Assembly (NCBI GenBank): GCA_016930435.1
Contig: JAFGGQ010000089.1
Span: 1 to 33,466 of the forward strand
From: a bacterium
Lineage (GTDB): Bacteria; UBP14; UBA6098; JAFGQG01
DNA length: 33,466 nucleotides
Reading direction: 5' to 3'
Below are positions 7,050 to 27,781 of this stretch, one piece after another (the stretch's first letter is position 1; each line of letters starts with the position of its first letter). Position numbers and translations under genes: made by a program. The notes under the pieces were generated by a model. The model was not told the DNA's origin and did not search any database. It was given only the letters and a program-made list of their open reading frames with translations.

Positions 7050-7094
7050 AAGTTCTCCCTTCGTTACCATCCGGTAAAAAGATATTCAGTGCAA

Positions 7095-10200: not shown

Positions 10201-11183
10201 ACCCAGGCGATATAGGGATTTGAATACCAGTCCGTGTCCACACGTGGAGTCAGACATAATGCGTCTGAGGGATGGATAACATAGGGACCGCTGAAGTATC
10301 CGTAATCGAGTAAATAGCGTGTTTCGACACTGGTAGTTGTGAAACTGGTGCTACTGGTCCTGATATAGGCAAGGTAAACCCGGCCACGCCGGTCAACCGC
10401 AATTCCCCCGTTATCAATGGCTTCATAAGCAGGATTGGGTGTAACGATCTGAAAATTCCCGACCGTAGGAGCGGCGCTTCCCAGATTGGAGATCTCGCAA
10501 TACCAGATATCGAAATCAAAAGGGTTAGAGGTAGATGAATCGTTATATGCAACATGACCTGTTGCTGATACACCCACTCCTTCGATTGCTATAACCGGCA
10601 TTATTTCCTGCCTGGATGTATTTACCACGGTATGAGGGCCATTGAAAGAATTGCCGCCATTTGTTGATACCAGATAAAAAACATCAAAGGAGGATCCCGG
10701 TTTCCGGGAATAGAATAAATATACATAATTTGCCATATCTACTTCCAGGCAAATATGTGGATAGAGATTGGTTTCCGCCAAGGTATAAGTCAAAGCAAAT
10801 GAAAGTCCCGCATTTAAGGACCGATAATACAGGATTTCCACACCGCCGAGGTAAACTCTTACAAAGGCTATGTGAACGTAAGCGGTGCTACCTGAACCAT
10901 ATACCTTGATTAGAGGTTCCATTATCACTTCCGAAACGCAGTTGTGCACCAATAGGGGCGCTGTAAATGTAGAACCTTGATCAGCAGAGCTGGAAAACCA
11001 GATCCGTGAGGTATCTCCCACCACTTCCAACCAGGTAACGTAGATTATTTGGTCGTCACCTATGGTGATATAGGGAGTAATCTGATCATTGGGTGCAGTA
11101 TGTACTGGAATATCATCGATATATCCAAATACATTCCCCAAGGTAAATATAACGAGTGCGAAAACCAATAACCTTTTTTCCAT
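7203..11183 (-). CDS. Secreted Asp-box protein with type IX sorting domain (copy 1)
   Basis: The protein has 1326 residues and the same layout as its downstream neighbour: signal peptide (MEKRLLVFALVIF to VFG), Asp-box repeats in about residues 25-410 (SADQGSTF, SLNAGLSF, STNGGNSF), two RWI...YYxQ/YWHQ beta modules, an FN3-like part near 660-780, a W-N-L...GWQLLGNPY module at about 864-1015, and a T9SS sorting domain from about 1238 (AYPNPFNSITRIEY to KLFLLR). AAAGGAGA sits 5 nt before the ATG. The two copies are closest between the WNL module and the sorting domain, where stretches of over 30 residues are nearly identical while many third codon positions differ. That points to protein-level selection rather than recent duplication. 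The ligand or target is unknown. Confidence 0.9.
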   Translation of the reverse strand: MEKRLLVFALVIFTLGNVFGYIDDIPVHTAPNDQITPYITIGDDQIIYVTWLEVVGDTSRIWFSSSADQGSTFTAPLLVHNCVSEVIMEPLIKVYGSGSTAYVHIAFVRVYLGGVEILYYRSLNAGLSFALTYTLAETNLYPHICLEVDMANYVYLFYSRKPGSSFDVFYLVSTNGGNSFNGPHTVVNTSRQEIMPVIAIEGVGVSATGHVAYNDSSTSNPFDFDIWYCEISNLGSAAPTVGNFQIVTPNPAYEAIDNGGIAVDRRGRVYLAYIRTSSTSFTTTSVETRYLLDYGYFSGPYVIHPSDALCLTPRVDTDWYSNPYIAWVDNSSGDFNVYVRHSKNRGFNYLTGYLVNGNPVSTNQTLMAFDVWAYDCERWLNFVWQGDQTGDFDIYHASLHQYLTTIKPLIAFGGFSASNKMQISYSTWEVEYIDSLVIEEDTLAEWFDGGSEIISSQFATGSTANNRWIINTWGDQYDTVRTCGVPIILYYYMQLHLWGSVNIAPPGLPLDSTNYVTVYGTSTGEYMPVATIWDGHTEDFWVDRISYIYFDSTSSASNDQERWIIEEGADDSFLVFISIPYTVPYWHQIFCDFTLLGTDTEHTVSVLDRAIFGVQDTTEGIWDSWTGWIDYNSRFALTDSTTGDTSRWTARITSWIFTDPIVDTIEYAGTAPADADFIMTGISPDGMQCTWDDFPDERIYYIAEYFDTTIVEGSDSIPSNTIIDSVYGLEENTLYHWFAVGITRRGNRYTLHDSAYTLCSNPTGAAVVDSGADYAVFIVSPFPNDTVANSGYFWDCIEGEAFGGKDTSFFDGRIAWVLDGLVEGQRYTYVVYYMNGDGIMTAVGDTISVWIVGARVCVFGGLYRYWNLFSMSVHAIPPSPVQIFQDDIYPFLLTPINSNLYDYDEPTFRYFVPATMVTGRGYWLYLWHLVRVDVWGRPTSEEFLWDLSYTEDIPIPGWQLLGNPYTNNAIDWLEILADPQTQEVDSTYYAWDAQWQTWAFYAPWFPGGVSNLIPPWRGIEIRAKNGEATLRMTYPTTFPIPRATPPVESQELAEVHWFIQLSTESDWSADRYNYLISATGAKSTVDKYDFFERPPMGETYSCLYFPQYDHRWGETVNFTTYSNDFSKVSGQKDISFIVQTNSMEEITLKWNIDGQLNPGQQVYLEDRITGDLIDMSTQSRYTYRTNSNSIIPPSVKRLLGAQEFAYGEDDNREFRIIVENHVRYLAGKNTELPTSFEILNAYPNPFNSITRIEYSVPSDQGDYSLVIYDILGKEIKVLMEKNSETGFHTAFWNGSDNQGRELPSGIYFCVLQNNVKKQVMKLFLLR

Positions 11184-11303: not shown

Positions 11304-14300
11304 TTAGGGCAAATGTGGTTTCCCGATAAGGTCAACAGTAATAATCACCAATTCGGCATATCTGCTGGAGGAAGTTGGAGCATGGAATTGCATCCACAGG
11401 TTTTCCGTTGATTGAGGGTCAGGGTGACGCCCAACAGGATAATCAGGATAAATAAATACTCCGCCCTCCCCGAAAATGGGGAACAAGCCCCCTGTAGTTG
11501 CCCAGGTAGTAGTAGATTTAACATAGTCCAGGCTGGGATTGAACATGGTTGGTGGAGTGCTGCTATCATTGAACCGTGCACGAAGAGTGAATTTATTGTA
11601 ATCCGAACTGTATCCGGGTATCCATAAACTTTCAATACCGCCACAGACAACTGAAGAAACCCTTAAACCAAAATCGATGGGACAATTGCCATCATTAGTA
11701 ATTTTGATCATATCCCTTTCCTCCATAGTAGCAGTTTCTTCGGGGTCCATGGTTTCCAGATCCCAGTAATCGATATTCAACCAGAATGAAAGATTGAAGA
11801 GCTCACCAAGATACCGGGCCACCTCTTCTGCATGAGAATCATAGCTGACCGTTCGACGGATTGGGGCTCCCGGGTCGGATTCCCACTCACTGAAGATATA
11901 AATAGAATCATAAGTAGGTACCGGGCCCATATCATACTCGCTTACCTCGATGGTATAGGTAGTGTCGAGATATATCCAGAATGATGCGCTATGGGTATCC
12001 CGAACGGTATCCCGCTCGAATAGCAGCCAGCCATAAGGCTGAGGCGGGTCTTTACGAATCAGTAACCTGTATTTTGTATCGTACATGGCTACAAACGCGG
12101 TTGGCCCTGTTATAGTATCGGTATAATGGACTATATCACCGCCGTCGCTCCAATTCTCAAAATAATAAGACATAGTATCAGAGAAATCAGGACTGGTTAC
12201 CCCTATTTCGTGTACTGAACCGGGGTACCACCAGGCGATTACGGAACTTACCGAATCATATTCTTCCCGGTCAATAAAGATAGAGCCGGAAGTATGCAAT
12301 GGGTTTTTGAAAATCGGGCACATGAATAAGGTGGTGTAATAGGCAATATATCTGTAGGTAGTATCCAGAACCCCACCGGGTACCGGGTCGGTGCGGTGTA
12401 AACGTTCGCCACGGTCGGACCATTCGAAGAATGAGAAACGGGCGGACGCGGAAGTGTCAAATTCGGATACCCCAATGTCATGGACACTGCCAATGCCCCA
12501 CCATTGGGAGATAATGGAAATGCTGTCGAAAACATCGTCGTCAACCATTATCCAGCCATAAATATCGCTTTCGGGATCCTTTTTTATGATATGGTGTATT
12601 GCTTGATTATAATGTGCGGTAAGAATATAGGAAGCATCGACCACGATATAGGTACGGGCAGACATCGTATCCTCGATAAGGGCACCGGAGGGTAAAGAGC
12701 TCCACCATACAAATCCCCAGTAGATTCCACTGCCTCCGCCCACCGGGGTTTCAGAGTATATTTCAACGGTATCCCCTTCCGAATACCAGCCTTCTCCCTC
12801 CTGGAAAGGAGCCTCGCCGGAACCTTCATAATCCAAAGCGATGAAGTACTGACCTTCCCAGAGCCAGGTTATAGTAGTGTTATCAAAGATATCGAAGTCG
12901 GTCCAGTAGGTGTATCCAAGGCTATCTGCCGAACCAGTTCCCAGCCATCCGGTACAGAAATAACCGCTGGAGGAATCCTCGAATTCAGAGACGGAATCCA
13001 CCTGGGCAAAAACATATTCACCGATCAGCCAGTAGGTTGTGCCGTAAGGCATGGGGTTATCATGTTCGGAGATCACGATCAGTTGTCGAACTGAGCTTTC
13101 ACCCGCCCAGAGCCAGGTCAAGGTGGATGGCTCCATCAGATAGAAGCTAAAATCGGTTTGATGGCTGCGTGGCGGAGCTGAGCCGGTGCCTTCATAACCG
13201 ATGCAGTACATAGTATCCCGCGGCCCGGCAGGATTATCGGTAATATAACCCTCAACCAGGGTGCTTTCGGGATACCAGTAGGTACTTGCCGGAGGCACAG
13301 GGGTGTCATAACCACCCTCGTTTTGTATAACAAAGCTGTATTGTATTTCCCATTGCCAGCGGATAGACGAATTCCGCCAGATCTCGAAGGTCATCGAGTT
13401 ATTATCGCCGTCCGGCCTGACATCCCCGGTTCCCAACCAGCCAGTACAATAAGCGCGAACGCCGGGGGTTAAATTCACGAATTCCTCAACCTGGGCGTTC
13501 ACCGTTGAACCGATCAACCAGTAGGTCCGGCCATAGGGAGTAGGCGAGCCATAATCGGTATAAACATCCAGGGCTGCAACGCTTTCACTGGGCGCCCACC
13601 GCCAGGTAAGACTGCTGTTTATAGTGATCATGAAGGAGAAATCGGTTTGTGGACTGACCGGTGGTAAATTGCCGCTTCCATAAAAACCGAGACAATAGAA
13701 TGAATCAGACAGAATGGGATCCCAGTCCGGATTGCGCCCCATCTCCCCGCTGACATAGGAGCCGGTGGGGTAGGAGTAAGAACCTGCGGGTGGGTCGGGT
13801 AATCCATAACCACGAGGGTTATTGACGGTGAAGATCAGATTCTCAGACCAATCCCAGATCAGGTAGGTCTCCTCCCAGATCTCAAAACTGACATTATTAT
13901 CGGTGCCGGCGCTATCGATAGAACCGGTCCCATGATAGCCCATACAAACGATCATTCTGCCACCGGAATAAACGATGGAATCAACACTGGCATCAACGGT
14001 GTTCCCAAGCAGCCACCAGGTTACTCCATAAGGGTGGGGATGATCATAGGCTGAGATCACGGTCAAACGGGCGCACATGGACATAGGGTACCATAGCCAG
14101 GTAACTGAGGAAGGTTCAGTAAGGTCGAGTTCAAACTCGGATTGAGGGCTGGAGGGCAAAGCTGCTCCCGTACCCACAAAACCGACGCAGACCATTGTGT
14201 CCACGAAGGGATCCGGGTTCGTAACCGATCCCCTGATATATGTTCCCTCGTCGTACCAGTGATCACCGGGGGCAGGAACGGGATTACCATATATATTTGT

Positions 14301-17300
14301 ATCACCGGGGAAATAAGACCAGCATTCTATTACTAATCTATGCTGAGTCTGCCAATGCCAGGTGATTGTGGTGGTATCATGAATAATGAAATTAACGTAA
14401 TTAACTGCTCCGCTTGGTGGTGCGGAGCCAGTTCCGGTAAAACCGGTGCTCAGGTAGCGGGTACCGTCGATTACCGGATCGTAAGCTGGAGAATTCACCA
14501 GTGCGGTGATCTCGGTACCTGGTATATAATAGGTAGTTCCCGCGGGAGATGGTTCACCATGTTCGGAAAAGATGATAAGGGGAACGAGATATGATTCCCA
14601 TAGCCAGGTGATCTCCACGGGGTCCATCAGTTCAAAGCTGAAGTCGAGCCGGGTGGTGTCAGTTCCATCCAGTGACCTTCCGGTTCCCGTAAAACCAATG
14701 CAATACATTATGGAGTCCGGAGCGATGGTATCGATATCCTCTGTATGGCAGTTGATTATAGTGCCTTCGTCATACCAGTGTTCACCGGCGTCCGGGAAGG
14801 GGTCATCACAGCCATAGGGATTGTTAATGACCAACCGGAATTGAGTTTTCCATTCCCAGGTAAGGGTTCCGGATGAGTCCATTACGATATCTACTGTATT
14901 GGTAGAACCTGACCGGGGTACTGGGCCGGTACCGGTCCAGCCTGTGCAAATAAAGCGTTCTCCATCTATGCCCGGGGATAAAAGGGTAGTCCATGCAGTG
15001 ATGGGGGTTCCGGTCAAAAACCAATTCACGATGCCATCCGGAGAGCCTGGAGGAACACAGGTTCCATGATCCGAATAGACTATCAGGCTTTCAACTTCCG
15101 AGCGGTGAGCCCATAGCCAGGTAACCTGTGAAGGGGCTTCGATGGTGAAGGTAAAACCGGAACCGGGCCCGTCCGGAAGTGAGCCGCTACCGTCATAACC
15201 AATGCAGCGGTAATCACCATCGGCGGGACGAATGCTTCCAACGATCTCGGTCTCGGTTTCAAACCAGTGGATTCCGAAATCGGGATCCGGGGAGTCGTAA
15301 TGGGGATTTGGTATTCCGCCTACTATAGAGTCGCGAACTATAAACCGATGTTGAAATTCCCATAGCCATTCCAGCGTTGAAGTTTCGGTCATGGTGAATG
15401 CGACGATATTGGTATCGCCATCACCCAGGGATCCGGTGCCATGGTAGCCGGTACAGTAGTACCGGTTACCGCCGAGGGTAACGGTGAGGTCCACAAAGGC
15501 AATATCGGATGTCCCGGGGATATAATAATTTGTACCTGCGGGTGGATCGGCGTGAGCGAAGGCAAGTAGCCAGCCAGTAGTGTCGATTACTTCCAGTACA
15601 AATTGATCGCCCCATAGCCAGGTGACCGAAGAGGGGGCGTCTATGATAAAATCGAACCGGGATCCAGTGCCATCTTCAAGCGAACCGGTGCCTTCATATC
15701 CTAAACAATATAGGCTTCCGGCGGGTGAGGTAACGGATCCGGTTACAGAATCACCCGTAGTGTACCAATACTCCCCTGCAGGGGGTACCGGAGTGTCCAC
15801 ATCATCGGGATTAAAGATCCAGAAGCGGTATTGGGCCAGGTATATGGCCCGGGCTTCGTAGGGGCGGTTCATATAGATATCCGTATGGGCGTTGAACCTT
15901 CTGCCAAAACTGGCTCCCGTCGGGAAGGATTCCCAACGGTCGAAGATATACCTGATGGAGTCGCCAGGTCCACCAACAAGAAGTGAATCCGTAGTAATGG
16001 AGTCGTGAGTTGCATCATTATACCAGCCCTCCCCGGTTTGCCTGGGAGTAAATGTATCGCATCCGGCGTAGGTGACTTCGAGGTAATACTGGGTGCTCCA
16101 ATCTGCTGTTTCGGTGATTGGATTATTCATTATCACCGTAGCGCCGGTATCGGGACCGGTATATGCTCCCCGGCCATCACCTTCCCATCCGTTGAATACA
16201 TGGCGGATGCCTGCCACTGCAGAGTCAAAAGTGGTAGTATAAAATGTAGCTGCAGCGCCCTCATCATACCAGCCATCACCATAAGGCTCCCCGTATTCGG
16301 AGATGATTTCGAGTTGATACTGCAGGTTAAAATAGGCGGTGAATGAGCTGTCATGCACAGATATTACGGAATGTGATGTATCGCCGCCATCGCTCCAATG
16401 CGAGAATACATAACGGGTGTGCCCAAAAGTCTGGGGGGAAATAGCGGTGATTACATGTTCGCTTCCCGGTACCCAACCGGTGAGATAAGGAACCGAGACG
16501 GTCAGGGAGTCCACTCCTACGAAGCCATAGCCGAAATCGTTCTCAATAGTAATTGTAACTACATTCCCGTAGCGAATGGATGCCAGGAACATAGAAGTAA
16601 TGTGCTCCCAGCTTCGGGGATCCCGGGCAACCCAGCCTAAGGTTGTAAACTCGGAAAAGGTCAACTGGCTACCGCAATCAGTCCATTCGGTATAGGTGCC
16701 GCATAGGCTGATATCGGGATCGAATACTCCGCCCCGATAATGGTGTTCGGTCCAGACCGTATTGCCGGGGCAATATGGCCCTATAAGGTTGATCAATGGG
16801 GTCCACTGATGGTAGCAGTCGGGTTGTATAGGAGATAATCCAAGCAGAATGCCGGAGCCTCCGGCAGTAATGTCCCAACGCTGGTAATCGGAGATCACCA
16901 GAGGGTCATGGTATTCGTAAAAGCTGCCGCAATCGGTCCATTCTTCGTAGATTGGAGTTATGCCACCCACATCGATCCCGGCGTAATAGCGTTGTTCCAG
17001 AGGGAAGCTGGGTACCAGATGGGTGCAGGTTTCGTGATTTCGTTTAAGTGGATTGAGGAAGGGGGTTTGCCACTGAAAGTAAAAGAGAGGGGCTACTCTT
17101 CGGGTGAGGATGCGGCCTACCGGTTCGGGGCAAAACCATCTTTCCTCGCGGGGGTCTTCGGGTACCTCGCTGGGGTAATGATAGAATGAAGCGACATCCG
17201 CCCATGTGGTGCAGATGGTGCTATTGGCGTATAGGACGCTGAAGTACTCGTATTGAAAATCAATGTCAACCGGAGGGGGCTCCAGGCATGCCCCACTGTT

Positions 17301-19343
17301 CGCTTTGGTAACATCGAATATAGCAAAGTACTGGTTATAATACATAATAGTAAATACATTGCCGCATTCGGCAGGGGTTTCACTCCAGTCCCCGGATTCG
17401 GACCAGATCCATCGCTCAATAGAGGAGGAACCACTGGACATCTGGTCCAGTGTTATGCTGGTCAAAGAGTCATGATAAACGATATGATAACCTGTTGATA
17501 TTTCCCTTTCAAAAACCTGTCCAAACGAGGTATAGGTCAAGGTCAGGGTCCCTTCCATGGAGTTAGCCAGTGTATCGTTCAGGATAATATTCAAATCGGT
17601 TCGCCACCACCGCGCGTTGGCGTAGTATATATCTCCCTCGTCGCTGCGGCGGTCCCACCAGTCAACATCCATCCTTCGTTCACAGGTGGAGAGATAAAGC
17701 GAGAGTCCGGGCACATACTGGTCGGACCACGAGTAGGTGTTCACCTGGTATTGGTCCGGGCGGAGGGTAAGTCCGCCATCTTCGGACCATACGCTGTATA
17801 TATCATAGGTGCCATTTCTCCGGTCTGACCAGGCCATGAAGGTATTATTAGCCAGGTCAATAGCCAGTTTTGGTTCGAACTGGTCTGCGGATGAGGCCGC
17901 TACCGGAACACCGGGCATGTTAAAACTGATACCACCATTGGTGGAACGGGTGTACCAGACATCAAAATTAGAGGAGGATACAATATCGGTATAGCCTATT
18001 TTGGGATTCCCTTCGAAATCTACCTGGAGTCCTCCCGGTGCGACATAACCCACCCAGCCCCCGATCGAACTTGTTCGTGAGGGGCTGTAAAGTGGATTAC
18101 GAATTCGGCGGTAATAAACATTCCCATTACTCAATGGTGGGAGCAACGGGATCGCAACGCCCACATCTGTATAGGCAATGTGCACGACGGCATTACCTCC
18201 TGAGCCGTAAACATCGTGGGCATTATAGGAGTAGTTCCAGAACCATTCCTCTTCCACCTCGATGGCGCTGTTGAAGTCGGCACCGCCATTGGATGAACAT
18301 CGCATCTCCACGCAGTACCAGTTATAATCGAACCAGAAGGGTGGCAATCCAAACCCTCCGGTGATCAGATAGTAAATAATCAGGTAAATTATCCAGAGTG
18401 CAACATTAAGAATGTGTCCTTCATCTGATTGGTTATAATAGCTGATGTAAACGTTATTTGCCTCATCGACGGAGATATCTGCGCCTCCCTCGTCATAATG
18501 GAAGGAGGTAGGGATTCCGGAAATAGATGGCAGGCCGTAGTCGCTGAGGTCGATATCATTATTAGCGATGGCTTGAAAGTGCCCGAAGGAGTTGCCCCCG
18601 TTGTTGGAGCGGCTGTAATATACATCGCCTTCCCAAACGGTATCCCGGCCCATATAACCGCCTTCGATATCGATAACATCGTGCACATGGAAATCCAGGT
18701 AGTTGTAAGCGACATGAACCCGGGCGGAATATCCGCTTCCCCAGACAGCGATTTGCGGAAAGTAATTGGTGCCGACATTATCCACGATCACCGGTTCTGT
18801 CCAGGTAGAACCAGCGTCTTCGGATTTAGCATGCATTATGGCATTGCTGGACCCCATATATTCAGCCCATACCGCATGGATAACCCCGTCGGAGCGGGTG
18901 GCGATATCGGGTTGCCGTTCCGGCCCATAATCGACCCGGACCGGTTTATCCCCGCTGAAGTCCATTAACTCGCTGGAACCGCCGGGTTCCGGCCGGTCCC
19001 GGAAAAGGTTACGAAGTATATGCTCTCGCTGCTCCTCGGTTAAACCGTCATCCTGACGCATTTCATAGACCCGAAGTACTTCGGGTGGAACATCCTCGAT
19101 GCTTGCCACCGCAGCACTCCGGGAAAAATTGGTTTTGTGAAGCCATTCAGAGATGGTGGGAGGTGGAAGCTGATTCCTGTCATTCACAATAATAGTCTTT
19201 ATCTGCGTGGCTTCCTTTCGGGAGCGGTTATAAGCCTTTATCTCCGCCGGATCGTCGCTCCATTCCATAGAATATAAACTGCTGAACCCAACTAAAACCA
19301 AAATAAAGAATAGAAAATACCTAATAAACCTGCTTGCAATCAT
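11304..19343 (-). CDS. Giant secreted Asp-box / InlB-B-like repeat protein (copy 2)
   Basis: The protein has 2679 residues. It has a signal peptide (MIASRFIRY to LYS), a charged N-terminal region (to about 115) and Asp-box repeats to about 530 (SEDAGSTW, SNNGGNSF, STNGGISF), interrupted by a very hydrophobic segment at about 309-327. A Cys-containing beta region follows with repeated EEWTDCGS, QRWDI and CYHQW motifs (about 540-955), then divergent InlB-B-like units (HWSDGG, GWYDEG, FNGWEGDG). Residues about 1169-2164 hold twelve GTGS/TWLW units. More InlB-like units follow, and an unrecognised C-terminal domain (about 2510-2679) ends in KPHLP. No T9SS domain is present. It is probably a long surface or extracellular stalk with a propeller head. 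The start at 19343 has AGGAGG 9 nt upstream; the frame opens earlier at 19388 without such a site. It is collinear with the upstream paralogue. Confidence 0.88.
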   Translation of the reverse strand: MIASRFIRYFLFFILVLVGFSSLYSMEWSDDPAEIKAYNRSRKEATQIKTIIVNDRNQLPPPTISEWLHKTNFSRSAAVASIEDVPPEVLRVYEMRQDDGLTEEQREHILRNLFRDRPEPGGSSELMDFSGDKPVRVDYGPERQPDIATRSDGVIHAVWAEYMGSSNAIMHAKSEDAGSTWTEPVIVDNVGTNYFPQIAVWGSGYSARVHVAYNYLDFHVHDVIDIEGGYMGRDTVWEGDVYYSRSNNGGNSFGHFQAIANNDIDLSDYGLPSISGIPTSFHYDEGGADISVDEANNVYISYYNQSDEGHILNVALWIIYLIIYYLITGGFGLPPFWFDYNWYCVEMRCSSNGGADFNSAIEVEEEWFWNYSYNAHDVYGSGGNAVVHIAYTDVGVAIPLLPPLSNGNVYYRRIRNPLYSPSRTSSIGGWVGYVAPGGLQVDFEGNPKIGYTDIVSSSNFDVWYTRSTNGGISFNMPGVPVAASSADQFEPKLAIDLANNTFMAWSDRRNGTYDIYSVWSEDGGLTLRPDQYQVNTYSWSDQYVPGLSLYLSTCERRMDVDWWDRRSDEGDIYYANARWWRTDLNIILNDTLANSMEGTLTLTYTSFGQVFEREISTGYHIVYHDSLTSITLDQMSSGSSSIERWIWSESGDWSETPAECGNVFTIMYYNQYFAIFDVTKANSGACLEPPPVDIDFQYEYFSVLYANSTICTTWADVASFYHYPSEVPEDPREERWFCPEPVGRILTRRVAPLFYFQWQTPFLNPLKRNHETCTHLVPSFPLEQRYYAGIDVGGITPIYEEWTDCGSFYEYHDPLVISDYQRWDITAGGSGILLGLSPIQPDCYHQWTPLINLIGPYCPGNTVWTEHHYRGGVFDPDISLCGTYTEWTDCGSQLTFSEFTTLGWVARDPRSWEHITSMFLASIRYGNVVTITIENDFGYGFVGVDSLTVSVPYLTGWVPGSEHVITAISPQTFGHTRYVFSHWSDGGDTSHSVISVHDSSFTAYFNLQYQLEIISEYGEPYGDGWYDEGAAATFYTTTFDSAVAGIRHVFNGWEGDGRGAYTGPDTGATVIMNNPITETADWSTQYYLEVTYAGCDTFTPRQTGEGWYNDATHDSITTDSLLVGGPGDSIRYIFDRWESFPTGASFGRRFNAHTDIYMNRPYEARAIYLAQYRFWIFNPDDVDTPVPPAGEYWYTTGDSVTGSVTSPAGSLYCLGYEGTGSLEDGTGSRFDFIIDAPSSVTWLWGDQFVLEVIDTTGWLLAFAHADPPAGTNYYIPGTSDIAFVDLTVTLGGNRYYCTGYHGTGSLGDGDTNIVAFTMTETSTLEWLWEFQHRFIVRDSIVGGIPNPHYDSPDPDFGIHWFETETEIVGSIRPADGDYRCIGYDGSGSLPDGPGSGFTFTIEAPSQVTWLWAHRSEVESLIVYSDHGTCVPPGSPDGIVNWFLTGTPITAWTTLLSPGIDGERFICTGWTGTGPVPRSGSTNTVDIVMDSSGTLTWEWKTQFRLVINNPYGCDDPFPDAGEHWYDEGTIINCHTEDIDTIAPDSIMYCIGFTGTGRSLDGTDTTRLDFSFELMDPVEITWLWESYLVPLIIFSEHGEPSPAGTTYYIPGTEITALVNSPAYDPVIDGTRYLSTGFTGTGSAPPSGAVNYVNFIIHDTTTITWHWQTQHRLVIECWSYFPGDTNIYGNPVPAPGDHWYDEGTYIRGSVTNPDPFVDTMVCVGFVGTGAALPSSPQSEFELDLTEPSSVTWLWYPMSMCARLTVISAYDHPHPYGVTWWLLGNTVDASVDSIVYSGGRMIVCMGYHGTGSIDSAGTDNNVSFEIWEETYLIWDWSENLIFTVNNPRGYGLPDPPAGSYSYPTGSYVSGEMGRNPDWDPILSDSFYCLGFYGSGNLPPVSPQTDFSFMITINSSLTWRWAPSESVAALDVYTDYGSPTPYGRTYWLIGSTVNAQVEEFVNLTPGVRAYCTGWLGTGDVRPDGDNNSMTFEIWRNSSIRWQWEIQYSFVIQNEGGYDTPVPPASTYWYPESTLVEGYITDNPAGPRDTMYCIGYEGTGSAPPRSHQTDFSFYLMEPSTLTWLWAGESSVRQLIVISEHDNPMPYGTTYWLIGEYVFAQVDSVSEFEDSSSGYFCTGWLGTGSADSLGYTYWTDFDIFDNTTITWLWEGQYFIALDYEGSGEAPFQEGEGWYSEGDTVEIYSETPVGGGSGIYWGFVWWSSLPSGALIEDTMSARTYIVVDASYILTAHYNQAIHHIIKKDPESDIYGWIMVDDDVFDSISIISQWWGIGSVHDIGVSEFDTSASARFSFFEWSDRGERLHRTDPVPGGVLDTTYRYIAYYTTLFMCPIFKNPLHTSGSIFIDREEYDSVSSVIAWWYPGSVHEIGVTSPDFSDTMSYYFENWSDGGDIVHYTDTITGPTAFVAMYDTKYRLLIRKDPPQPYGWLLFERDTVRDTHSASFWIYLDTTYTIEVSEYDMGPVPTYDSIYIFSEWESDPGAPIRRTVSYDSHAEEVARYLGELFNLSFWLNIDYWDLETMDPEETATMEERDMIKITNDGNCPIDFGLRVSSVVCGGIESLWIPGYSSDYNKFTLRARFNDSSTPPTMFNPSLDYVKSTTTWATTGGLFPIFGEGGVFIYPDYPVGRHPDPQSTENLWMQFHAPTSSSRYAELVIITVDLIGKPHLP
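12850..15835 (-). repeat. Tandem array of twelve GTGS/TWLW beta units, copy 2
   Basis: About 2.99 kb encodes twelve units of roughly 80-85 residues, each with a C-x-G-[WYF]-x-G-[TS]-G core and ending in a T-W-x-W strand. Two unit types alternate. One opens like NPxGxDxPxPPAGxHWY and ends TWLW plus a short linker. The other opens like VYSDxGxPxPYGxTYWLxG and ends TWxWExQ. The array is therefore six dimers of about 165 residues. The units resemble divergent InlB B-repeats (Flg_new_2-like). Boundaries are approximate. Confidence 0.85.
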
Positions 19344-19431
19344 TATATGATGCCTCCTAAGTAAAAAACCCCGTTGTAGAGTATTCAAAATTGCTGTATA
19401 ACATAATTAGCCCTATTATATTACTATATTG

Positions 19432-19632: not shown

Positions 19633-22600
19633 TCAGGGCAGATGAGGTTTTGCGATCAGGTTTACTGTGATGGTAACCAAACTTCCATAGTAATTTGAGA
19701 GTGTTGGCGAAAGGAACTGCATCCAGATGTTTTCGGTGGATTCCGGAGCCGGATGCCTCCCCAGCGGATAATTGGGATAAATAAATACCCCGCCCTCTCC
19801 GAATATTGGGAAGAGTTCATGGTTAGTAGCCCAGGTTATGGTGGACTTAACGAAATCCAAACTGGGACTGAATTCAGCAGGAGGCGTAGGGTTATCATCA
19901 AAACGCACTCGCAGGGTAAATGTGTTCATTCCCGGGTAATATCCAGGTGCCCAGATACCGGTAAAACCGAGCATTTCCACTGATAGAACCATGAGTCCAA
20001 AGTCGATAGGGCAATTTCCGTCATTGGTGATCTGGATCATCTCATCAACTTCCATTGTCCTTACGTTATCCAGGTTCATGGTATCCAGATCCCAATAGTT
20101 GCGGTCCAGCCGGAAAGAGAGGTTAAAGGTTTCGGCCAGGTAAAGAGCAACTTCTTCGGCATGCGCATCGTAGGGCCCCACCACCCTTCTTATGGGTGCA
20201 GCAGCATCGCTTTCCCACTCGTTGAAAATATAGATCGAATCGTAGGTTGGAGAAGGTCCCATATCATATTCGCTTACCTCGATGGTATAAGTGGTATCCA
20301 GGTATATCCAGTAGGAAGCTTCGGATGTATCCCTGACCGTATCACGTTGGAATAGCAACCAGCCGTAGGGTTGGGGAGGTTCCTTCCGGATCAGCAGGCG
20401 GTATTTGGTATCGTAGTAGGCTATGAAGGCAGTTGGACCGGTAATGGTATCAGTTATATGAATGATATCGCCACTATCGCTCCATTCTTCAAAGAAATAA
20501 CCAATAGTATCTTCCAGATCGGGTGATGTCACTCCGATCTCGTGTACCGTTCCGGGCAGCCACCAGGCGATTACAGAGCTGACCGAATCGTATTCGGTGC
20601 CATCCAAAAAGATGGATCCGGAGCGGTGCAAGGGGGCTTTGAATATGGGACACATAAAGAAGGTAGTATAATAAGCGATATAACGATATGTGGTATCCAG
20701 ATGGGTTCCGGGTACGGGTTCGGTAGTATGAATGATCTCGCCGCGGTCAGACCATTCGAAGAATTGGTAACGTGCGGAAGAGGAAGAGTCAAAATCTGAA
20801 ACACCGATGCGGTGAACACTGCCAATGCCCCACCATTGAGAGACGGTGGATACGCTATCAAAGGTCAGATCGTCAATCAGTATCCAGCCATAAACGTCGC
20901 TTGTGGGGTTTTTTCTGACGATGTGGTGAATAGCGGGATTATAATGCGCGGTGAGGGTGTAGGCGCCATCGACCACGATAAATGTACGGGCTGCCATTGT
21001 ATCCTCTATGGGAGCGCCGGTAGGCATTGAACTCCACCAGACGAAACCCCAGTATGCGCCTTCGGTCTCACTATAAACAGGGGTTTCTGAGTAGATTTCC
21101 ACGGTATCCCCAAGGAAGTACCATCCCTCGCCTTCCTGGTATGGTTCTTCATCGCAACCATCATAGGTGAGGTCGATAAGATAAGCGCCTAACCAGTGCC
21201 AGGTTATAGAGGAGTGTTCAAAGATGTTAAAATCGGTCCAGTAGGTGGATCCGGCGCTATCAACGGATCCGCTCCCGGTCCAGCCGGTACAGAAATAACC
21301 CATTGATGAATCCACCAATTCGGTTATGGAATCCACCTGAGCCAGGACGTATTCCCCTATCAACCAATATGTGGTACCGTATGGCTGGGGATTGTCATGA
21401 TCGGAGTAAACGTCCAATCTTCTGACCGAGCTGGACCCTGCCCATACCCAGGTAAGAGTGGATGACTCCAAGAGCATAAAACTGAAGTCGGTCTGATGGC
21501 TTCGTTCCGGGGCTGATCCGGTTCCGTAGTAACCGATGCAGAACATTGTGTCCAGGGGCCCTGCAGGGTTATCAGTGATGTAACCCTCCACCAGGGTGCT
21601 TTCAGCGTACCAATATGTCCCGGCGGGAGGTACCGGTGTATCGTACCCGCCCTCGTTTACTATTGTGAAGCTGTACTGTATATCCCATTGCCAGGTTATA
21701 GATGAATTATAATATATCTCGAAGCTCATATTGTTTTCATCACCGTTGGGCCTGACATCCCCTGTTCCGATCCAGCCTGAACAGTAAGCTCTGATGCCGG
21801 GGGTGATCATAACAAACTCGTCAACATTGGCGTTTACTGTGGAACCGATCAGCCAGTAAGTTCGGCCATAAGGATGGGGTGATCCATACTCTGAGAATAC
21901 ATCAAGTACCGCCACGCTTTCGCTGGGCGCCCATCTCCAGGTGATACTTGAAGGTGTAGTGATGGTGAATAAAAAGTCGGTTTGAGGGCTTACAGGTGGG
22001 AGATTCCCGGTGCCATAATAACCTAAGCAGTAGAAGGAATCAGCCCGAAGGGGATCCCAGTCCGGATTGCCGTCCATCCAGCCTTCGATGAAACTCCCGA
22101 TTGGATAAGAATATGTTCCTACCGGAGGCACCGGATCGCCGTAACCCCGTGGATTGAGAACCGTAAAGGCCAGGTTGGATGACCAATCCCAGACCAGGTA
22201 AGTTTCCTCCCATATCTCGAAGGATGTATTATTGTCGGTTCCGAATGAGTCCACGGAACCATATCCGTGCCATCCGATACATTCAACCCAGATATCGCCC
22301 ATCACAACTATTGAATCGACCTCGGCGTTGACGGTTTCTCCCAAGAGCCAATAGGTAACTCCCCATGGGCGAGGGCTGTCATGGGCGGAGACCACGGTAA
22401 GACGCGCGGTCATGCTTTCGGGGTACCAGCGCCAGGTGATAGATGATGGTTCCGTAAGGTCGATATTGAATTCCGATTGCGGACTGGATGCCGGCGCTGC
22501 GCCGGTTCCATAAAAGCCCACGCAGACCATGGTATCTACAACGGGGTCCGGATTGGCTACCGAACCGCGGATATTTTCTCCTACGGAGAACCAATGCTCA

Positions 22601-25600
22601 CCTAAGGTTGGGATGGGATTTCCATAAATATTTGGATCACCCTCAAAATAAGAGTACTGTTCGATGATCAGGCGGTACTGGGTTTGCCACAACCAGGTAA
22701 TGGTAGTAGTATCATTGATAACGAAATAGACATAAGTTGCGGTTCCATGAGCAGGGGCTGACCCGGTACCGTTAAAACCGGTACAGAGATGCCGGATCCC
22801 GTCGGTAGCGTCGTAATGTGGTGAATTAACCAGGGCGGTAACCCCGCTTCCGGGGATCCAGTAAGTGGTATCGGAAGGGGAAGGATCGCCATAATCTGAA
22901 ATTATATAAAGTGGTATCATATACGATTCCCAGATCCAGGTTACTTCCACCTGATCAACGATAAAAAAGCTGAAATTGGTAGAGGAACGGTCAATCCAGT
23001 CCAGTGAATGTCCTGAACCATCGAAGCCCACGCAGTACATAATGGAATCGGGTGTGATGGTGTCCGGGGTAGTAACGAAACAAGTAACCATGGTGCCTTC
23101 ATCGAACCAGTGTTCACCCACGCTGGGGAATGGGGCATCGCAGCCGGATGGATTAGCGATGATCAGGCGGTACTGGTTTCTCCAGTTCCAGGTAAGGGAA
23201 CCCGAAGAATTCATGACGAAGTTCACGGAATTGCTATCACCGGAGGCTGGCACTGGCCCGGTGCCGGTCCATCCAGTACAGACATGTCTTTCTCCGGGTG
23301 CGCCTGGCGCTACCAGGGTGGTCCAGGCGTTAACCGGGGTATCCCTTAAAAAGTAGTTCCATATACCGGTTGATGAACCCGGCGGCACACAGGTTCCGTA
23401 ATCGGAATATACTACCAGGCTTTCTACTTGACTGCTGTGTGCCCAGAGCCAGGTTACCATTGAGCCATTTCCAATGGTGAAGGTAAATCCGGAGCCCACT
23501 CCGTCGCTCAATGAGCCATCGCCGTCATAACCTACACAGCGGTAATCGCCATACAGGGGGGTGATACTCCCGACAATGACCGTACCGGATTCGTACCAAT
23601 GGGTTCCGAAACCGGGAACGGGTGAGTCATAAAAGACTTCTGCCGCTCCGCCCACGATAGAGTCGCGGACGATAAAACGGTGTTCAAAAAGCCAGAGCCA
23701 CTCCAGGGTGGATGATTCTGTCATGGTGAATTCAACCCAGTTAGTATCCCCGCTATCGATTGCGCCGCGGCCTGTGTAGCCGATACAGCGATAACGGTTG
23801 CCGGTAACTCCCAGAACGTAGGTTTCATCCACGGTAGCAGTATCTGAGGTCCCTGGCACATAATAGTGCAGTCCGGCGGGTGGGTCGGCGTGAGCCAAAG
23901 TAAGCAGCCAGCCGGTAGTATCAACTACTTCCAGGGTGAACTGATCACCCCAAAGCCAGGTTACAGATGAAGGTGCATTGATGATAAAACTGAATTCCGG
24001 TGCGGTGTCATCGCGAAGTGAACCCGTTCCGGTGAAGCCCAGGCAGAAACTCCCCTCCGAAGGAGATGTAACCGAGCCGGTAACTTCGGAACCATTGAAA
24101 TACCAGTAACAGCCCACCGGAGGAACGGGGGTGTCTATGGCGTCGGGGTTAAAGACACAGAAGCGGTATTGGATCACATAAACCGCGGTCACTCTATAGG
24201 GTCTGTTCATATAGACGGTAGTATGGGCGTTCCGTTCGCTGCCGAATGTTGCTCCGGCTGGATAGGATTGCCAGTGATCAAAAATATATCTTATAGAATC
24301 GTCCGGGGAGCTGCCTCCCAGTATAGAATCCGCTGAGATATTGGCGTGAGTTGCGTTGTAATACCAGCCTTCGCCTGTGAGGGTGGGAGTATGAGGACCT
24401 GCGCCAGTATAATCTAATTCCAGGTAGTACTGCGTATTCCAATTAGCGGTTTCGGTAATAGGATTGTTCATTGTTACGGTATGTCCGGTGTCCGGCCCTG
24501 TATAGGATCCGGTTCCGGAGCCTACCCAGCCCTCAAATTCGTGCCGGATACCTCCGATGGCGGAATCATAGCGGGTAACATGGAAGGAGGCATTGGTCCC
24601 TTCATCGTACCATCCACCGCCCACCGGATCGCCGTAATCTGAGATAATCTCAAGCAGGTACTGGAGGTCGAAATAAGCTACGAAAGTAGTATCATAAACG
24701 GTGGATACGGTATGGGAAATCGCCCCTTCATCGCTCCAGTGAGTGAATATATAGCGTGTATGACCGAATACCTGTGGGGAAAGGGCGGTGATCACGTGGT
24801 CGCTTCCCGGCGCCCAACCGGTTACATAAGGGGAGGAGACTTCCAGTGAATCGACCCCGATTCGGCCACCTCCAAAATCATTACGGATTGTAATCGCTAC
24901 TACGTTGCCGTAGCGGATAGATGCTACGAACATTGTTATGACATGCTCCCAGGAATAGGGATCCCGGGCTACCCAGCCCAGTGTAGTGAATTCCGAGAAG
25001 GTTAGCTCGGTACCGCAATCTGTCCATTCGGTATATGTTCCGCACAAACCGACATCGGGGTCGAACAATCCGCCCCGGGTATGAGCTTCAACCCAGACGG
25101 TATTATCGGGGCAGGTTGGCCCGATAAGGTTTATAAGGGGGGTCCACTGGTGATAGCATTCCGGCTGGATTGGATCCAACCCCAGAAGGGTTCCGCTGGA
25201 CCCGGAAGTGATATCCCAGCGTTGAAATTCAGAAATATTCTTGGGGTCCTCATATTCATAAGGACTGCCGCAGTCTGTCCATTCCTCATAAAGAGGGGTA
25301 GTGCCCCCTTCGTTAACACCGGCATTATAGCGCTGAACCATAATGAAGCCGGGAACCGAATGGGTACAGAATTCGTTATTCAATTTGCGGGGGGTGAGGA
25401 ATGGCGTTTTCCACTGCAGGTAGAACGGCGGGGCAATGAGGTAAGACATCAGGCGTCCGGTAGGGGAGGGACAGAACCATCGCTCATCCCTGGGTTCTTC
25501 GGGATAAACCTCGTCATAGGTGTAAAAAGAAGCGATATCAGCCCATGTTGTGGTATTGGTGGTATCCGATTGCAGGGCATCGAAATAATAGTACTGGAAA

Positions 25601-27684
25601 TTTACGCCGGTGGGGGGATCCGCCGGGCAACCGGGTGGATTAGCCTTGGTTACCGTAAAATGTGTGTAGTATTGGTTAAAATAGGTTACGGTATATGTAT
25701 TGCCGCACTCAGAAGGAGTAGCGCTCCAGCCGCCTTCCTCGGAGAATATCCAGCGTTCGACTGCATTGGAACCGCTGGAAATCTGACCGAGTGTGATCTC
25801 GCTCAAAGAATCATGATAGATGATGTAGGAGCCCGTGGTAACCTGTACGGTACAGGGTTGATCGAAGGATGTGTAGATGAGGTCAACGGTTCCGCCCATA
25901 GGATGGGCGAGGGTGTCATTGAGAACGATCTCGATATTAGTGCGCCACCAGGTAGCATTGGCATAATAGATATCCCCACCATCATCGCGCATGTCCCACC
26001 AATCTATGTCCAGTCTTCGGATGCAGTCATCGGTATAGATCCCTATACCGGGAACCACCTGGTCGGAATGGAAGTAGGAGTTGACCCTGTGTTGATCGGG
26101 GCGGAGGGTTCGTCCACCATCCTCGGTCCATACGGTATATATATCGAGTGTTCCGTGTCGGCCATCTGTCCATGCCAGGAAGGTATTGTTGGAGTTGTCG
26201 ATGGCGAGCCGGGGCTCGAACTCGTCCGCAGAAGAGATGGCTAATGGCTGGCCGGGAGAATCGAAAGTGGCTCCACCGTCAGTAGAATGGGTGTACCAGA
26301 CATCGAAATCGGAGGCGGAAATAATATCGGTGTAACCGATTTTGGGATGTCCTAAATCGTCAACTTCCAGTCCGCCGGCGGAGACATAACCCACCCAGCC
26401 CCCTATCTCGGAGGTCAGTGAAGGGCTGTAAAGCGGGTCCAATACCTTTCGGTAGTAAATATTTCCGTTGGAAATGGGGGGTAGCAGGGGGATGGCAACG
26501 CCTACATCGGTATAAGCGATATGAACCACCGCGTTAGGCCCTGACCCATAGACATCCAGGGAGTTGTAGGAATAATTCCAGAACCATTCCTCCTTAATCT
26601 CAAGGGCATCATTAAAATCGGATCCTCCGTTGGAGGAGCAGCGCATCTCCACATTATACCAGTTATAGTCGAACCACCAGTCTGGCAGCCCGAACTCCCC
26701 GGTTATCAGATAATAGGCGATGATATAGATGATCCAAAGGGTTATGTTCAGGAGATGTCCTTCGTCGGATTGGGCGTAGTAGCTGATATAAACATTGTTA
26801 CCTACATCGACGGTGATATCCGCGCCACCTTCATCGTAATGCCAGGCGGTGGGAATGCCAGGGATAGAGGGCAATCCGTAATCACCAAGGTCGATATCAT
26901 TATTGGCAATAGCCTGATAGTGACCGAAAGAGCTTCCTCCGTTATTTGAGCGGCAATAGTAAACATCGCCTTCGAAGGTAGTATCCTCCCCGAGATACCC
27001 TCCGGAGGTGTCAATGACGGTGGTAATGTGAATATCAACGTAGTTATATACAATATGCACTCTGGCGGAAAAACCTGTACCCCACACTGCGATCTGAGGA
27101 AAATAGTTTGTTCCAACATTATCCACGATAATGGCTTCGGACCAGGTGGCTCCTGCATCGGTCGAGCGGGAAAACATGATAGCATTATTGGAGCCCATTT
27201 CCTCGGCCCATACGGCATAGATTCTTCCATCGGTGCCCGTAGCAAGACTGGGCTGCCTTTCCGGGCCAGAATCGACCCGTACGGGGATATCTGCACTGAA
27301 GGAAAGGGCCGAAGCCCTTCCGCCAGGCTCCGGCATATCCCGGTATAGATTCCGGATCCATCGCTGCTCATCTTCACTGTACTCATGCAATGGAAATTGA
27401 TGACGGTATGTTTCACGAAGGGATTCCGGCAGCTGATCCTCATTTGCAACCGCTGCTTTTTTCTTGAAATCGTTCTTATAAAGCCACTCGGTTATGGTCG
27501 GAGGGGGCAGTTGATCCGAGTCTTTAACCACAATTGTCCGAATATGATTCTCGCTTTTCAACTGCCTGTTGTATGCTTTGATTTCGGTTGGATCATCACT
27601 CCAATCCAGAGCAAAGGTTTGAACGGTCCAAGCGCATATAAATATAATGACCATTAAATAAGCAACAAACTTTGAATTAACCAT
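19633..27684 (-). CDS. Giant secreted Asp-box / InlB-B-like repeat protein (copy 1)
   Basis: The protein has 2683 residues and matches its downstream paralogue domain for domain. It has a signal peptide (MVNSKFVAYL to TFA), a charged WSDDPTEIKAYNRQL region, and Asp-box repeats to about 530 (STDAGATW, SNNGGSSF, STDGGATF, TEDGGRTL) with an embedded hydrophobic segment at about 311-328. A Cys-containing EEWTDCGS/QRWDI/CYHQW beta region follows. Then come InlB-B-like units, twelve alternating GTGS/TWLW units (about 1171-2166), further InlB-like units, and the same C-terminal domain (about 2490-2683) ending KPHLP. By eye roughly three quarters of residues agree in the propeller. The role is inferred as a surface or released fibre with a binding head; no enzyme motif was recognised. 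GGAGG stands about 10 nt before ATG 27684, so it is preferred over ATG 27708. Confidence 0.88.
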   Translation of the reverse strand: MVNSKFVAYLMVIIFICAWTVQTFALDWSDDPTEIKAYNRQLKSENHIRTIVVKDSDQLPPPTITEWLYKNDFKKKAAVANEDQLPESLRETYRHQFPLHEYSEDEQRWIRNLYRDMPEPGGRASALSFSADIPVRVDSGPERQPSLATGTDGRIYAVWAEEMGSNNAIMFSRSTDAGATWSEAIIVDNVGTNYFPQIAVWGTGFSARVHIVYNYVDIHITTVIDTSGGYLGEDTTFEGDVYYCRSNNGGSSFGHYQAIANNDIDLGDYGLPSIPGIPTAWHYDEGGADITVDVGNNVYISYYAQSDEGHLLNITLWIIYIIAYYLITGEFGLPDWWFDYNWYNVEMRCSSNGGSDFNDALEIKEEWFWNYSYNSLDVYGSGPNAVVHIAYTDVGVAIPLLPPISNGNIYYRKVLDPLYSPSLTSEIGGWVGYVSAGGLEVDDLGHPKIGYTDIISASDFDVWYTHSTDGGATFDSPGQPLAISSADEFEPRLAIDNSNNTFLAWTDGRHGTLDIYTVWTEDGGRTLRPDQHRVNSYFHSDQVVPGIGIYTDDCIRRLDIDWWDMRDDGGDIYYANATWWRTNIEIVLNDTLAHPMGGTVDLIYTSFDQPCTVQVTTGSYIIYHDSLSEITLGQISSGSNAVERWIFSEEGGWSATPSECGNTYTVTYFNQYYTHFTVTKANPPGCPADPPTGVNFQYYYFDALQSDTTNTTTWADIASFYTYDEVYPEEPRDERWFCPSPTGRLMSYLIAPPFYLQWKTPFLTPRKLNNEFCTHSVPGFIMVQRYNAGVNEGGTTPLYEEWTDCGSPYEYEDPKNISEFQRWDITSGSSGTLLGLDPIQPECYHQWTPLINLIGPTCPDNTVWVEAHTRGGLFDPDVGLCGTYTEWTDCGTELTFSEFTTLGWVARDPYSWEHVITMFVASIRYGNVVAITIRNDFGGGRIGVDSLEVSSPYVTGWAPGSDHVITALSPQVFGHTRYIFTHWSDEGAISHTVSTVYDTTFVAYFDLQYLLEIISDYGDPVGGGWYDEGTNASFHVTRYDSAIGGIRHEFEGWVGSGTGSYTGPDTGHTVTMNNPITETANWNTQYYLELDYTGAGPHTPTLTGEGWYYNATHANISADSILGGSSPDDSIRYIFDHWQSYPAGATFGSERNAHTTVYMNRPYRVTAVYVIQYRFCVFNPDAIDTPVPPVGCYWYFNGSEVTGSVTSPSEGSFCLGFTGTGSLRDDTAPEFSFIINAPSSVTWLWGDQFTLEVVDTTGWLLTLAHADPPAGLHYYVPGTSDTATVDETYVLGVTGNRYRCIGYTGRGAIDSGDTNWVEFTMTESSTLEWLWLFEHRFIVRDSIVGGAAEVFYDSPVPGFGTHWYESGTVIVGSITPLYGDYRCVGYDGDGSLSDGVGSGFTFTIGNGSMVTWLWAHSSQVESLVVYSDYGTCVPPGSSTGIWNYFLRDTPVNAWTTLVAPGAPGERHVCTGWTGTGPVPASGDSNSVNFVMNSSGSLTWNWRNQYRLIIANPSGCDAPFPSVGEHWFDEGTMVTCFVTTPDTITPDSIMYCVGFDGSGHSLDWIDRSSTNFSFFIVDQVEVTWIWESYMIPLYIISDYGDPSPSDTTYWIPGSGVTALVNSPHYDATDGIRHLCTGFNGTGSAPAHGTATYVYFVINDTTTITWLWQTQYRLIIEQYSYFEGDPNIYGNPIPTLGEHWFSVGENIRGSVANPDPVVDTMVCVGFYGTGAAPASSPQSEFNIDLTEPSSITWRWYPESMTARLTVVSAHDSPRPWGVTYWLLGETVNAEVDSIVVMGDIWVECIGWHGYGSVDSFGTDNNTSFEIWEETYLVWDWSSNLAFTVLNPRGYGDPVPPVGTYSYPIGSFIEGWMDGNPDWDPLRADSFYCLGYYGTGNLPPVSPQTDFLFTITTPSSITWRWAPSESVAVLDVFSEYGSPHPYGRTYWLIGSTVNANVDEFVMITPGIRAYCSGWIGTGDVRPNGDENNMSFEIYYNSSITWQWDIQYSFTIVNEGGYDTPVPPAGTYWYAESTLVEGYITDNPAGPLDTMFCIGYYGTGSAPERSHQTDFSFMLLESSTLTWVWAGSSSVRRLDVYSDHDNPQPYGTTYWLIGEYVLAQVDSITELVDSSMGYFCTGWTGSGSVDSAGSTYWTDFNIFEHSSITWHWLGAYLIDLTYDGCDEEPYQEGEGWYFLGDTVEIYSETPVYSETEGAYWGFVWWSSMPTGAPIEDTMAARTFIVVDGAYTLTAHYNPAIHHIVRKNPTSDVYGWILIDDLTFDSVSTVSQWWGIGSVHRIGVSDFDSSSSARYQFFEWSDRGEIIHTTEPVPGTHLDTTYRYIAYYTTFFMCPIFKAPLHRSGSIFLDGTEYDSVSSVIAWWLPGTVHEIGVTSPDLEDTIGYFFEEWSDSGDIIHITDTITGPTAFIAYYDTKYRLLIRKEPPQPYGWLLFQRDTVRDTSEASYWIYLDTTYTIEVSEYDMGPSPTYDSIYIFNEWESDAAAPIRRVVGPYDAHAEEVALYLAETFNLSFRLDRNYWDLDTMNLDNVRTMEVDEMIQITNDGNCPIDFGLMVLSVEMLGFTGIWAPGYYPGMNTFTLRVRFDDNPTPPAEFSPSLDFVKSTITWATNHELFPIFGEGGVFIYPNYPLGRHPAPESTENIWMQFLSPTLSNYYGSLVTITVNLIAKPHLP
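21185..24172 (-). repeat. Tandem array of twelve GTGS/TWLW beta units, copy 1
   Basis: The array has the same twelve units, in the same order and with the same two-type alternation, as 12850-15835, and almost the same length (about 2.99 kb). Examples of unit ends are SVTWLWGDQ, TLEWLW, ITWLWQTQ and ITWQWDIQ. The nucleotide sequences of neighbouring units are well diverged, so this is an old protein repeat rather than a recent DNA repeat. Boundaries are approximate. Confidence 0.85.
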
Positions 27685-27781
27685 TATTAATCTACCTCCC
27701 TGACGCATTTTATTAGTCTGATATAATTAACAAATCCTAAGTTTTAAAGAGCGTAAAAAATCCGCTTTTTTAGCGTATAAA

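Follow-up and report, generated by a model that had tools for sequence, protein, structure and literature searches.

Rods in which two domain types alternate are already known from the G5-E region of the staphylococcal proteins SasG and Aap. This region is monomeric and elongated, the G5-E and E-G5 interfaces differ, the domains are connected through beta-strands, and the E domain of SasG is unstable in isolation (PMC4458895). Rods of small tandem domains are also formed by the SHIRT arrays of the Periscope Proteins, whose repeats have identities of 82-100% and a variable copy number (PMC8201768). The InlB B-repeat (PDB 2Y5P and 7PV9; PF18998) is comparable in length and, judging from models, in overall fold to the units studied here. 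We report that, in a giant secreted surface protein of the phylum UBP14, a heterotypic pair of units called O (odd) and E (even), which would derive from an E-like single repeat, probably forms an extended rod. Searches of open-licence papers turned up no earlier description of such an alternating array of InlB-B-like units.

The window, i.e. the whole stretch of 33,466 nucleotides that was analyzed, belongs to a genome of 2.85 Mb in 180 contigs. UBP14, also named Candidatus Idrufiota, has hydrothermal sediments and wastewater as habitats (PMC11382960). Gene A (11304..19388, minus strand) encodes a secreted repeat protein of 2694 residues. Its annotated start is a TTG, and an ATG at 19343 sits immediately before the signal peptide that can be read from the sequence. 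Full-length relatives with 44-65% identity occur in the sister genus and in other families of the phylum. Gene B (19633..27708, minus strand) encodes 2691 residues and is the tandem sister of gene A, with a full-length identity of 69%. Among the genomes seen, this one alone carries the tandem duplication, and the two proteins are closer to each other than either is to the copy of the sister genus (64-65%).

Behind the signal peptide, the protein encoded by gene A has an N-terminal region containing Asp-box-like motifs and then classic repeats; the twelve-unit array comes next, before further repeats and a C-terminal domain. All parts lie on the minus strand, and the limits of the flanking ones are approximate. 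The N-terminal region (about 17469..18971) gives a sub-threshold BNR_2 match, with an E-value of 0.017 for the sister protein in the Pfam scan, and might conceivably be a beta-propeller. Three classic InlB-B-like repeats (about 15834..16511) are read from the sequence on the N-terminal side of the array, one of which scores 18.9 bits with the E profile built from the window and 6.4 with the O profile. Around four divergent repeats, also read from the sequence, follow the array on its C-terminal side (about 11829..12851). The conserved C-terminal domain (about 11304..11828) is of beta type and ends in KPHLP, a similar end, AQMRLP, being found in the related protein L059; it may serve for anchoring or sorting. 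Genes A and B are adjoined by two genes for large secreted proteins (window 3051-7070 and 7203-11183) with C-terminal Por_Secre_tail / FlgD_ig-like secretion tails, a kind of tail that A and B do not have. Finally, a tRNA-Pro (cgg) lies at 2184-2258 of the window and is overlapped by a listed open reading frame (2191-2736), the first codons of which are thus non-coding.

The array of gene A occupies 12852..15833 on the minus strand, at most three bases away from the limits of the original prediction (12850-15835), and consists of six O-E dimers, that is twelve units. Read from the N-terminal side, all on the minus strand, these are dimer 1 at 15354..15833 (O1 15606-15833, E2 15354-15605), dimer 2 at 14844..15353 (O3 15105-15353, E4 14844-15104), dimer 3 at 14346..14843 (O5 14592-14843, E6 14346-14591), dimer 4 at 13842..14345 (O7 14085-14345, E8 13842-14084), dimer 5 at 13344..13841 (O9 13590-13841, E10 13344-13589) and dimer 6 at 12852..13343 (O11 13101-13343, E12 12852-13100). 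The array of gene B (21187..24171, minus strand) also has twelve units and is collinear with that of gene A. In gene A, the units are 76-87 residues long, typically about 82, and share a layout that opens with the first strand (QYxF or LxV), continues with a P-x-P hairpin and the CxG[WYF]xGxG core motif, and closes with the WxW strand. The motifs that had been proposed to separate odd from even units hold as family-level features but are not strict: the 'NPxG' opening is absent from units 3 and 7, and the 'TWxWExQ' ending is a tendency. The linker running from the W to the first strand has a median of nine residues from O to E versus six from E to O. Each unit, in both genes, possesses a single conserved cysteine in the core motif (e.g. 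C47 in O11 and C49 in E12), at a position taken by a hydrophobic residue in the classic repeats. Since most units have no second cysteine, a disulfide inside the unit is unlikely. Charge was rejected as a difference between the two types, both being strongly acidic.

Inside the window, the alternation is visible with three methods of comparison. The mean identity is 25% between neighbours (lag 1) and 38% between units two positions apart (lag 2), a saw-tooth that goes on up to lag 9, with high values for even lags and low values for odd ones. The odd/even partition is the best of 462 balanced bipartitions in gene A and again in gene B, and in independent pairwise alignments every one of the 24 units finds its best partner among units of its own parity. 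In a tree of the 24 units, odd and even form two clades separated by a split with support of 100/98, and neighbours do not cluster. One change of label is sufficient on this tree, compared with a mean of about 8.6 after shuffling, and a split between first and second half of the array was rejected (p-AU 0.008). The proposal that the stalk is made of dimers of two alternating unit types, put forward from the sequence of the window, thus passed the tree test, and it then held in other genes and genomes.

The unit family is found on seven further contigs of the same genome. With profiles made from the window units only, the order O-E-O-E is unbroken in these seven other arrays, whose detected lengths are 10, 10, 10, 8, 4, 2 and a weak 2. 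The family is present in all 17 UBP14 genomes examined. In a set of about 50 arrays, some 40 of which belong to relatives, the window-only profiles show alternation in 346 of 367 adjacent pairs, and profiles re-estimated phylum-wide from confident units show it in 365 of 386, although orthologues are not independent and these counts overstate the number of independent events. The independent evidence for alternation, drawn from sequence comparison, is that several paralogous array families of one genome each alternate. In a phylum-wide tree of 92 sampled units, 39 of 40 O units fall in one group (support 98/95) and 39 of 40 E units, plus one other unit, in another (96/98), which implies that the split is older than the divergence of the UBP14 families. 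The main protein keeps about twelve unit positions across the families of the phylum, some of them degenerate, and other orthologue groups have 10 or 8. We regard the alternation, its age and conservation and the stability of the array as demonstrated by these comparisons.

The exceptions are few and mostly concentrated. Among 206 O units, two lie at contig edges, and E comes directly next in 199 of the 204 others. Of the five remaining ones, four open the array in the main protein family, in which the unit after them is too diverged to pass the cut-off applied; the fifth closes a 7-unit array. Most non-alternating pairs sit in three proteins (L055, L048 and L049). L055 (G002:C6) carries a homogeneous array, truncated by the contig end, whose E-like units are nearly identical and have linkers of six residues as from E to O. 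The existence of this array indicates that alternation is not obligatory for the stalk of this family. In the giant proteins L048 and L049 (G001:C189), classic InlB-B-like repeats take turns with E-like WxW units, the period being about 157 residues; this second kind of alternation covers a part of the protein upstream of a normal O-E array. Arrays with an odd count also occur in two gene groups, with 7 units (L031, L059, L102) or 5 units (L057, L064), so that an array tends to have an even count but need not. The 7-unit arrays read O-E-O-E-O-E-O and have O as their last unit, L031 being cut at its end.

The tetrad O9-E10-O11-E12 of gene A (dimer 5 as its first half and dimer 6 as its second) was modelled by AlphaFold2 from an input of 58 in-phase tetrads. 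The model has a pLDDT of 96.3 and a pTM of 0.82, the latter suggesting that the four domains are arranged in a defined way, and all units are predicted to be beta with an identical strand order. At the E to O junction, a single predicted strand (residues 158-173) runs across the boundary, while at both O to E junctions a three-residue helical turn breaks the strand. Both the fold and the two kinds of junction are features of the model; they alternate along the tetrad and fit the two-domain pitch suggested in the original prediction. Modelled alone, the E unit is also predicted to fold, with a pLDDT of 94.

As for the family to which the units belong, Foldseek ranks several InlB B-repeat entries among the ten best for the E unit (TMt at most 0.55, probability at most 0.72, E about 0.8, rmsd about 7), 2Y5P being among the best solved matches (TM 0.49-0.55, probability 0.72, E 0.83). 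The same unit matches models of viral proteins named internalin-B-like or bacterial repeat, with probabilities up to 0.99 and TMq of 0.57-0.61. These matches of a modelled fold are not significant by E-value alone, and their weight is that one family recurs. The whole tetrad gives mixed multi-domain matches with large rmsd, the second of which is the SHIRT 3-4 pair (probability 0.92). At E<=1, PF09479 and PF18998 match none of the 24 window units, and the whole proteins gave no match to them either. Pfam and NCBIfam scans of single units and whole proteins returned no useful match, and searches of PDB sequences with the O and E profiles retrieved nothing relevant. The nearest approach to the family profile is made by a classic repeat of L055, which reaches PF18998 with an E-value of 0.0012 and 19.2 bits, below the cutoff of 23.6. 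The label of InlB B-repeat given in the original prediction is therefore favoured by fold and by intermediates, but no family profile matches the units. The units look InlB-B-type as modelled, outside formal profile membership. Moreover, that family had been taken as a repeat of a single unit, and here two clades alternate.

A comparison with the known systems can now be drawn. Like SasG and Aap, the UBP14 rod alternates two domain types, and two distinct junctions are predicted. However, its units come from an unrelated family: no sequence link was found, and Pfam scans of proteins and units gave no match to G5 domains. Unlike in SasG, both units have about 80 residues and the same predicted strand order, and the protein is secreted by members of an uncultured phylum, whereas SasG is wall-anchored and Gram-positive. 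From the InlB B-repeat, the units differ by their WxW strand end, their CxG[WYF]xGxG core and their two alternating types. They resemble the SHIRT arrays in forming a rod of small tandem domains but, unlike these, are strongly diverged (identity within the window arrays at most 48%), of two types and stable in number. The low identity of neighbouring homologous domains is a trait shared with the arrays of titin and fibronectin. The latter are built from eukaryotic Ig and Fn3 folds and are not known to alternate two domain types as strictly as here.

Concerning the origin of the two types, an O-E-O-E profile matched three genomes outside UBP14 in a sample of 386. In the best outside match, as in the phylum of that genome (12 of 35 genomes), the units that were read are E-like and stand alone. 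No O unit was found outside UBP14, either in the 386-genome sample or in the phylum of the best match, and a scan for relatives on viral contigs found none. Within UBP14, the homogeneous units of L055 and the E-like units of L049 are both placed on the side of E in the phylum-wide tree. The simplest history that these sequences suggest is that an E-like single unit was duplicated in tandem and that each first member then became O. L055 may be a living intermediate and is also a candidate for a recent repeat expansion. The direct signature of the dimer as the physical unit of duplication is weak: within the same dimers, O-O similarity is only loosely correlated with E-E similarity (mean r 0.18). 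Eleven pairs of units from one array exceed 60% identity, and all of them are at even spacing.

We propose that the rod consists of six copies of an O-then-E module, in which each domain, of about 82 residues, would be all-beta and InlB-B-repeat-like. E would be the older, generic domain and O its derived partner, found only in UBP14 and nearly always followed by E. The two unlike junctions, E to O with its uninterrupted strand and O to E with its short turn and longer linker, would confer a two-domain period on the rod. The most likely role of the array is that of a spacer rod, which may be stiff and hold the N-terminal part off the cell or between cells. Alternation would persist for two reasons: unlike neighbours would be less prone to misfolding, and each junction would be fitted to its two faces. 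A stronger version, which we put forward tentatively and hold to be rather doubtful, is that O is an obligate adaptor, unfolded or marginally stable without E, and that the array is one cooperative rod of heterotypic pairs.

Several other readings were weighed against the O-E rod. One could suspect that the odd/even pattern is an artefact of alignment or labelling, the units being short, the columns few and the identity low; yet it returns with three methods and in held-out genes and genomes, which refutes this reading and leaves it with a negligible chance. Another would be that the array is a Periscope-type stalk, whose copy number is tuned between strains by recombination, as tandem repeats in a surface-type protein that is predicted to be rod-like may recall. 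The units of one array are however only 25-48% identical, not above 80%, and their number is stable across orthologues (about 12, or 10 or 8 in other groups); on these two grounds we reject such length variation as highly improbable.

The alternative that deserves the most attention, though we still judge it unlikely, is that alternation only avoids the misfolding of identical neighbours, so that any two diverged domains would suffice and no structural partnership is needed. Neighbours are indeed always of the less similar kind, misfolded states of titin disappear faster at low neighbour identity (PMC4660218), and large multidomain proteins mostly hold the identity of neighbours below 50%. But E lies directly C-terminal of O in 199 of 204 cases, the junctions are consistently unlike in length and predicted structure, and a clade pair extending over the phylum is more than mere divergence calls for; and the array of near-identical repeats in L055 exists nonetheless. 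Less probable again is that the units are modules binding a ligand, e.g. a glycan, for avidity, with O as the binding face and E as the spacer. O is richer than E in aromatic residues (12.6 versus 10.6) and in proline, and the fragments bound in a glycan screen of a gut metagenome resembled proteins containing, among others, divergent InlB B-repeat domains, a link that is indirect. Against it, many of the conserved aromatics are motif residues (WxW) common to O and E, and no catalytic or binding signature was seen, Pfam and NCBIfam giving no match and the PDB sequences none of relevance.

The O-E rod gives the uncultured phylum UBP14 a surface-protein architecture conserved in 17/17 genomes examined. 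The members of an evolutionary series, i.e. the single E-like unit, the homogeneous array and the alternating heterotypic array, are all still present. This allows a direct test of why tandem domains alternate, misfolding avoidance versus interface matching, a question debated so far mostly from titin and SasG. If O were truly an adaptor of E, the principle of SasG would have been invented independently from an InlB-B-like fold, and it would count among the traits that define an entire bacterial phylum.
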